From Clostridiisalibacter paucivorans DSM 22131 (GTDB taxonomy: Bacteria; Bacillota; Clostridia; Tissierellales; Clostridiisalibacteraceae), in contig NZ_JHVL01000001.1 in assembly GCF_000620125.1 (NCBI RefSeq), forward strand, positions 62,001 to 126,000: a stretch of DNA of 64,000 nt. The letters run 5' to 3'. Shown piece by piece: positions 48,537 through 60,796 of this stretch. Both the position numbers and the translations under genes were made by a program. The number at the start of each line of letters is the position of its first letter. Positions within the stretch are counted from its first letter, which is position 1. The notes beneath the pieces are model-generated. The model had not been told where the DNA came from and searched no databases. It was given only the letters and a program-made list of their open reading frames with translations.

Positions 48537-48550
48537 CTTTGTCACCCCTC

Positions 48551-51823: not shown

Positions 51824-51840
51824 TTTATCCCTCCTTGTCC

Positions 51841-51857
51841 TACCCCCTATGGGGTGG
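51841..51857. promoter_or_regulatory. CsoR-type operator before copA
   Basis: TACCCCCTATGGGGTGG, a G/C-tract dyad (TACCCC-N4-GGGGTG) 17 bases upstream of the copA ATG. It fits the pseudo-palindromes bound by CsoR repressors. Confidence 0.7.
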
Positions 51858-51903
51858 GTTGTTTGTATGTACATAATATCATAAAATAATATACCTGTAA
51901 AGA

Positions 51904-52687: not shown

Positions 52688-52987
52688 TTAGCATCTTCTA
52701 ACTCCTTCTGCTGTAACAAAAAATCCCCTTCTAAGCCAACTATTGTTATAATCAATATTGAAGCTATCATACTGAGACAATAAATCATCATCAGCTATAA
52801 AGCTTATATTGTCTATTACTACTTCTTGATCTTTATCCTTTTGCTCATCCAGAGCAAGCCCAAACGATGGGCCACCTCAGCCAATACCTGCTATATATAT
52901 TCTCACTCTTTTGTCTTCAGTACTCTGTTTATTAGTTATAATCTTTTCTAATTCAGATGTAGCTTTTTCACTAATATTAACTCTCAT
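52688..52987 (-). CDS. HesB-like selenoprotein (in-frame UGA read as selenocysteine)
   Basis: 99 aa if the TGA at codon 37 (52877-52879) is read through. The protein reads GIGUGGPSFGLALDE, where U is the TGA; the HesB/IscA-like family has cysteine there, and HesB-like selenoproteins are known. Directly after the TGA a stem GCCCA-UCGUU-UGGGC with a G in its small loop is a plausible bacterial SECIS. The frame stays open on both sides, and TAA ends it. ATG with GGAGG upstream; terminator just after. A 17-bp ATACCC palindrome precedes it. The role is probably iron-sulphur or redox related (inference). Confidence 0.87.
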
Positions 52988-53025: not shown

Positions 53026-53042
53026 ATACCCTGTCGGGGTAT
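53026..53042. promoter_or_regulatory. ATACCC-N5-GGGTAT operator before the selenoprotein gene
   Basis: ATACCCTGTCGGGGTAT, a perfect hexamer dyad with 5-base spacer 38 bases upstream of the ATG. The form matches CsoR/CstR-family operators. Confidence 0.7.
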
Positions 53043-53077
53043 CATGTAACAAATTTTATTGTATTTTTATTATTTTG

Positions 53078-54989: not shown

Positions 54990-55006
54990 TTACCATAGGG
55001 GGGTAT
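54990..55006. promoter_or_regulatory. Degenerate ATACCC-N5-GGGTAT site before ccdA
   Basis: TTACCATAGGGGGGTAT has one perfect half (GGGTAT) and one 4/6 half at the same spacing as the two perfect sites. Lies 24 bases upstream of the ccdA start. Confidence 0.5.
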
Positions 55007-60288: not shown

Positions 60289-60474
60289 TTGAATATCACT
60301 AAAGATATGCTTATAGGAGAATTATTGAAAGCTAAACCTGAAGCTGCTCAAATTCTCATGAGATATGGTATGGGATGTGTAGGTTGTCCTTCTGCCCAAA
60401 TGGAATCTTTGGAAGAAGCATCCTTAGTTCATGGAATAAAATTAGATGAGCTTTTGAAAGAATTAAATAGTTAA
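60289..60474 (+). CDS. DUF1858 protein
   Basis: 61 aa. TTG start, eight bases after AAAGGAGG. The domain seen at the N-terminus of ScdA/RIC-like and hybrid-cluster associated proteins, with MRYGMGCVGCPSAQMESLEEAS; the paired Cys (CVGC) and HGIKLDELLKELN are typical. Probably an iron-sulphur or redox accessory. It converges with a glutaredoxin gene. Confidence 0.9.
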   Translation: MNITKDMLIGELLKAKPEAAQILMRYGMGCVGCPSAQMESLEEASLVHGIKLDELLKELNS

Positions 60475-60779: not shown

Positions 60780-60796
60780 ATACCCTAACTGGGTAT
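60780..60796. promoter_or_regulatory. ATACCC-N5-GGGTAT operator before the glutaredoxin gene
   Basis: ATACCCTAACTGGGTAT, the same exact hexamer dyad and spacer as at 53026-53042, 45 bases upstream of the ATG. Confidence 0.7.

Follow-up and report, generated by a model that had tools for sequence, protein, structure and literature searches.

A probable HesB-like selenoprotein gene and a CsoR-type operator shared with thiol-redox genes

HesB-like proteins form a widespread bacterial selenoprotein family, and a 2026 review describes most selenoproteins as still of unclear function (PMC13188914). A reading frame interrupted by TGA on the minus strand of the window, the 64,000-nucleotide stretch of DNA that we analyzed, raises the question of whether the interruption is a defect or a selenocysteine (Sec) codon and, if the latter, what controls the gene and what its product does.

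The recoded gene and the Sec machinery of its host

ORF calling with translation table 11 found no frame of 80 or more amino acids at the locus, in agreement with the initial annotation, which had proposed a HesB-like selenoprotein gene at 52688–52987 that escapes standard calling. The position was right and the strand is the minus: the gene, below HesB-Sec, runs from ATG at 52987 to TAA at 52690–52688, with the in-frame TGA at 52879–52877. Read with TGA as Sec, it gives 99 residues, MRVNISEKATS...GIGUGGPSFGLALDE...VTAEGVRRC, with Sec at codon 37 and Cys99 at the C terminus, the same length and the same central segment as had been proposed. The protein matches the profiles NF038090 IscA_HesB_Se (1.2e-19), TIGR01911 HesB_rel_seleno (5e-16), and PF01521 (1.3e-5), as well as TIGR00049; its scores for the first three lie slightly under the curated cut-offs (70.5 against 85, 59.1 against 66.35, and 25.8 against 26.3 bits), and all relatives of the order, with stops read through, likewise fall under the HMM cut-off.

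A decaying pseudogene, or a sequencing error at the TGA codon, would be a ready reading of a gene that standard ORF calling misses, and we consider it excluded for practical purposes because each of the 82 Sec-type relatives collected, from as many genomes of the order, has TGA at this codon and because protein identity is 42–59%. The search pattern for the codon preceding GGP/SGP had admitted Cys too. A HesB-like match was present in 134 of the 249 genomes of the order, most of the strong ones with exactly one TGA, and in the closest 37 relatives the identity to the window protein extends along the whole protein, on both sides of the TGA. In the alignment, the Sec of the UGGP motif at codon 37 coincides with the Cys of Cys homologues. 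Also standing against decay or error are the conserved SECIS, promoter, operator, and terminator described below and the complete set of sel genes in the genome.

The presence of all sel genes had been named as support for the proposal. The host genome (3.25 Mb, 99% complete) carries selA, selB, and selD (623.6, 353.6, and 395.7 bits, respectively) as neighbors on a single contig, with a tRNA-Sec of anticodon TCA (UCA) a few kilobases away, and thus holds the decoding machinery that HesB-like selenoproteins require. The selD gene has an in-frame TGA of its own near the N terminus (SSGUAAK), and a second, well-known selenoprotein is therefore encoded in the same way in this genome. With four sel components present and both the TGA and the downstream protein conserved, the central claim of the initial annotation is well supported, and we regard 52987–52688 as very probably a functional HesB-like selenoprotein gene under the control of a CsoR-type operator in a Sec-decoding, probably anaerobic firmicute.

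The gene is a further member of a kind of selenoprotein known since 2005–2006 (TIGR01911, NF038090): HesB-like selenoproteins were among the known selenoproteins listed in 2005 (PMC1242214) and were covered by a 2006 survey (PMC1794560), and their motif is given as UxGP in the 2026 review (PMC13188914). The window protein shares with them its length, the UGGP motif, Sec at the family Cys, and a bacterial Sec machinery, and differs in scoring slightly under both family cut-offs. A second IscA-like gene in the host genome (L009), which has no stop, was set aside as a separate, Cys-rich paralog that lacks the UGGP motif. The HesB-like gene is present as tandem Sec and Cys copies in Clostridium and in family f6 (L011 3001–4100, L012 2550–3300, and L028/L037/L136), and one genome (G226) has three tandem HesB-like copies, each matched with one TGA.

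The probable SECIS hairpin

Decoding of UGA codon 37 by SelB and tRNA-Sec would be aided by a SECIS hairpin, most likely GCUC-UGGAU-GAGC, 21–33 nt downstream at 52855–52843 on the minus strand. Its loop lies 25 nt after the UGA, within the 16–37 nt of the published bacterial SECIS model, and has G at its second position. All four pairs are present in each of 43 relatives (100% of cells paired), with three double changes, including C–G to U–A on both sides, whereas versions of the stem slid along the alignment were paired in at most 50% of cells; RNAalifold picked the same hairpin independently, and 40 of the 43 relatives satisfy all constraints of the published model there. In the larger set, all four GCUC/GAGC pairs are kept in 80 of 82 genes, nine of them as GUUC-UGGAY-GAAC, and in some of the 80 the loop codon has changed from GAT to GAG or GAA with the stem intact. 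The Leu codon in the stem is CTG in 40 of the 43 relatives, although CTG makes up 4–5% of Leu codons in neighboring genes, and none of the five Cys homologues examined has all four pairs. The fold of the window sequence alone is stable and not exceptional (MFE −16.6 kcal/mol, z −1.5), and the case for the SECIS thus depends on comparison across relatives. A search of Rfam gave only matches at chance level, with neither a SECIS nor any other family at the gene.

The initial annotation had pointed to another stem, GCCCA-UCGUU-UGGGC (52872–52858, minus strand). That stem does exist four bases after the TGA, but its assignment as the SECIS is probably wrong: its loop lies 9 nt after the UGA as against 16–37 nt in the model, its pairing is weak (77% of cells among the 43 relatives), and one of its five pairs is broken in 24 of 41 distinct sequences. 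We rejected it as the main SECIS, and it is probably only a local stem beside the SECIS in this species. The corrected element provides a clean 13-nt signature for finding genes of the HesB-Sec type. Two genomes, G018 (L160) and G019 (L161), have HesB-Sec without the standard GCUC/GAGC stem, G019 with TGA and two of the four pairs.

The putative operator and the genes that share it

The gene is framed by control elements, as the initial annotation had described. Directly after the stop codon, a probable intrinsic terminator of 13 pairs and a T run occupies 52689–52661 on the minus strand (0.0 such hairpins expected in shuffled sequences). Upstream, a promoter-like GTTACA-18-TATAAT, recognized by its match to the consensus, lies at 53050–53021 on the same strand, and an exact palindrome with no mismatches, ATACCCTGTCGGGGTAT at 53026–53042, sits between and over both hexamers. 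The operator, which had been mentioned only in passing, appears to us the most informative feature of the locus. The published type-2 operator of CsoR-family repressors is ATATACCCCTNAGGGGTATAT with TAC-X9-GTA (PMC3902906), and TACCCTGTCGGGGTA, which overlaps the promoter-like site, has the TAC-X9-GTA inverted repeat with two G/C tracts and fits this consensus. The site is conserved, being found upstream of 65 of 81 HesB-Sec genes.

The strict form of the motif, ATACCYNNNNNGGGTAT (ATACCY-N5-GGGTAT), has six sites in the host genome, compared with one or two matches for the reversed-pattern controls, and all six lie upstream of thiol- or selenol-redox genes: HesB-Sec; a YruB glutaredoxin; a thioredoxin-reductase-like flavoprotein; a second glutaredoxin; a VTT-domain protein followed by a peroxiredoxin; and a lipoamide-dehydrogenase/MerA-like flavoprotein. 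The distance to the start codon is 37–42 bp at five of the sites and about 97 bp at the VTT site. The second member within the window is the YruB-type glutaredoxin with a CPHC motif (60740–60510, minus strand; TIGR02196, PF00462), 40 bp upstream of which the motif search found a second exact operator, ATACCCTAACTGGGTAT (60780–60796). Six other genomes (G155, G188, G205, G215, G217, and G245) have the operator before both HesB-Sec and a YruB-like glutaredoxin. The looser pattern TACCYN5GGGTA was abandoned: it has sites inside genes, and in one genome (G205) its control counts equaled or exceeded the real ones; our conclusions on the operator are therefore drawn from the 17-bp form. Sites of that form inside genes (G017, G031, G185, and parts of G014, G215, and G217) were not counted as regulon members.

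The conserved operator connects HesB-Sec with glutaredoxins, with disulfide reductases, and with one particular repressor paralog; it thereby names likely redox partners of the protein and reduces the question of its function to a simple induction experiment. This regulon link and the corrected SECIS are our additions, and neither was found in the literature searched, which likewise contained no description of CsoR-type regulon membership for HesB-like selenoproteins; a search for a link between CsoR and selenoproteins or for a clostridial CstR regulon of this kind returned nothing relevant, subscription journals being mostly outside its reach.

Further observations concern the surroundings of these sites. 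In the host genome, the thioredoxin-reductase-like flavoprotein and a glutaredoxin stand in tandem on C8 (L104 1839–3021), and each is preceded by a separate copy of the operator. In the window, a DUF1858/TIGR03980 "hybrid cluster protein-associated redox disulfide" protein (60289–60474, plus strand) is convergent with the glutaredoxin, and a pair of the same two genes adjoins HesB-Sec in G205 and G245. CcdA-like, TlpA/ResA-like, and LGT-like genes lie just upstream of HesB-Sec (54996–53078, minus strand), and by them is a weaker operator-like site with two mismatches (54990–55006). In G014, where Sec and Cys copies of the HesB-like gene stand in tandem, the operator is located between them, ahead of the Sec copy.

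Candidate repressor and role of the protein

In each of four genomes examined, two or more CsoR-family genes are present: one adjoins copA and has the copper C-H-C pattern, and another is usually beside ThiF-like and RseC-like genes. In G000 the second paralog is located at C4:8803–9069. This paralog keeps both Cys, and at the metal-ligand position has His in most of the sequences read and Tyr in others. Among the 81 genomes with a readable region upstream of HesB-Sec, and with one mismatch at most allowed in the operator and E below 1e-20 required for the paralog, the operator was present before 64 of 74 HesB-Sec genes in genomes with the second, non-copA-linked paralog and before one of seven in genomes without it (Fisher P = 1.5e-4, a descriptive value that overstates the association as the genomes are related). 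The single case of an operator without the paralog, G214, has sister genomes with the paralog. HesB-Sec and the CsoR paralog occur without the operator in seven genomes of family f5 and one of f14; the rule is broken by f5 and by G161. No clear operator site was found in G226 and G235, and in G226 the start of the tandem array was left out.

These patterns make the second paralog the probable repressor at the HesB-Sec operator, and transcription of the gene would most likely be repressed by it and not by the copA-adjacent CsoR. The copper CsoR has to be considered since the operator belongs to the type-2 class of the CsoR family, since copA and the C-H-C CsoR are 0.8–3.7 kb away in the window, and since the copA site is similar enough in geometry that the copper repressor could recognize the HesB operator; selenoprotein and regulon would then be real, with HesB-Sec serving in the copper response through protection or repair of Fe–S clusters or Cu(I) buffering by the selenol. 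We find this improbable. At the copA/csoR sites, the G/C tracts are longer and the ATACC..GGTAT flanks of the HesB operator are missing; the regulon comprises glutaredoxins, flavoproteins, and a peroxiredoxin, not copper genes; and the operator follows the second paralog, being present in G205, G215, G216, and G245, where Tyr takes the place of the ligand His. As the paralog keeps both Cys and can have Tyr for His with the operator present, we consider it more likely to sense through a dithiol than to sense copper, although a metal signal may be conceivable in view of the His kept in most of the sequences read. Within the window, CCCACCCCATAGGGGGTAG at about 51840–51860 (minus strand), upstream of the likely true start of copA, is probably the operator of the copper CsoR and differs from the HesB operator; the called copA ORF begins about 17 codons before that start.

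Known CsoR/CstR repressors with type-2 operators, namely Streptomyces lividans CsoR (PMC3902906), Staphylococcus aureus CstR (PMC5480029), and Thermus TTHA1953 (PMC10318464), share with the proposed system the TAC-X9-GTA repeat with two G/C tracts and a repressor with two conserved Cys, and the targets of TTHA1953 are similarly scattered away from the repressor gene (PMC10318464). The targets differ, being glutaredoxins, flavoprotein reductases, a peroxiredoxin, and a selenoprotein instead of copper efflux or cst/sox genes. Thiol-reactive stress, from persulfide or polysulfide or from oxidants, would relieve repression via the two cysteines of the repressor; whether the inducer is in fact thiol-reactive, for example, a persulfide or an oxidant, we judge to be an evenly balanced matter.

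The structure of the protein bears on its role. For an AlphaFold model based on 26 relatives (mean pLDDT 89), the top Foldseek matches are IscA (1r94/1x0g) and SufA (2d2a), with E from 7e-6. In the alignment, Sec37 falls on the first cluster-ligand Cys of proteins of the IscA type, whose C-terminal motif supplies two more Cys (PMC7144353). In this order, the tail instead has just one Cys, at its very end, which 46 of the 48 aligned sequences retain, and each chain thus offers one Sec and one Cys. The product would accordingly resemble the A-type Fe–S carriers IscA, SufA, and ErpA (PF01521) in its predicted fold and first ligand position, yet differ from them in having Sec for the first Cys, one terminal Cys instead of the C-x-C tail, and no isc or suf genes beside it; with the ligand set C...CxC replaced by Sec37 and the terminal Cys, the modeled IscA fold does not place it in the carrier family in the strict sense.

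That HesB-Sec is nevertheless an ordinary A-type cluster carrier with Sec as one ligand is consistent with the fold, with the position of Sec at the first ligand Cys of the family, and with the PF01521 and TIGR00049 matches, but seems rather unlikely to us given the reduction of the two site-completing Cys to one in nearly all members of the order and a regulon of thiol redox, not Fe–S assembly, genes. Tentatively, and with less than even confidence, we propose a chemistry in which the induced Sec/Cys pair carries or reduces sulfane sulfur or handles a labile Fe–S or metal center, with glutaredoxin as the reductant and HesB-Sec recycled by the co-induced glutaredoxin and reductases. At the level of the order, it seems to us about an even call that the HesB-like selenoprotein, alongside the YruB glutaredoxin, acts as a core effector in a regulon for selenol/thiol stress under a non-copper, CsoR-family dithiol repressor. 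The recoding signature, the sel machinery, the SECIS covariation, the shared operator, and the co-occurrence of the paralog are read from sequence, and we infer the repressor, the inducer, and the protein chemistry. If these proposals are true, the HesB-like family would consist of sulfane-sulfur or thiol-stress proteins with an IscA fold and not of Fe–S assembly carriers.

Elsewhere in the window, an M-box magnesium riboswitch (48899–48736, minus strand, 133 bits) lies directly upstream of a CorA-like transporter gene at 48545–47598.
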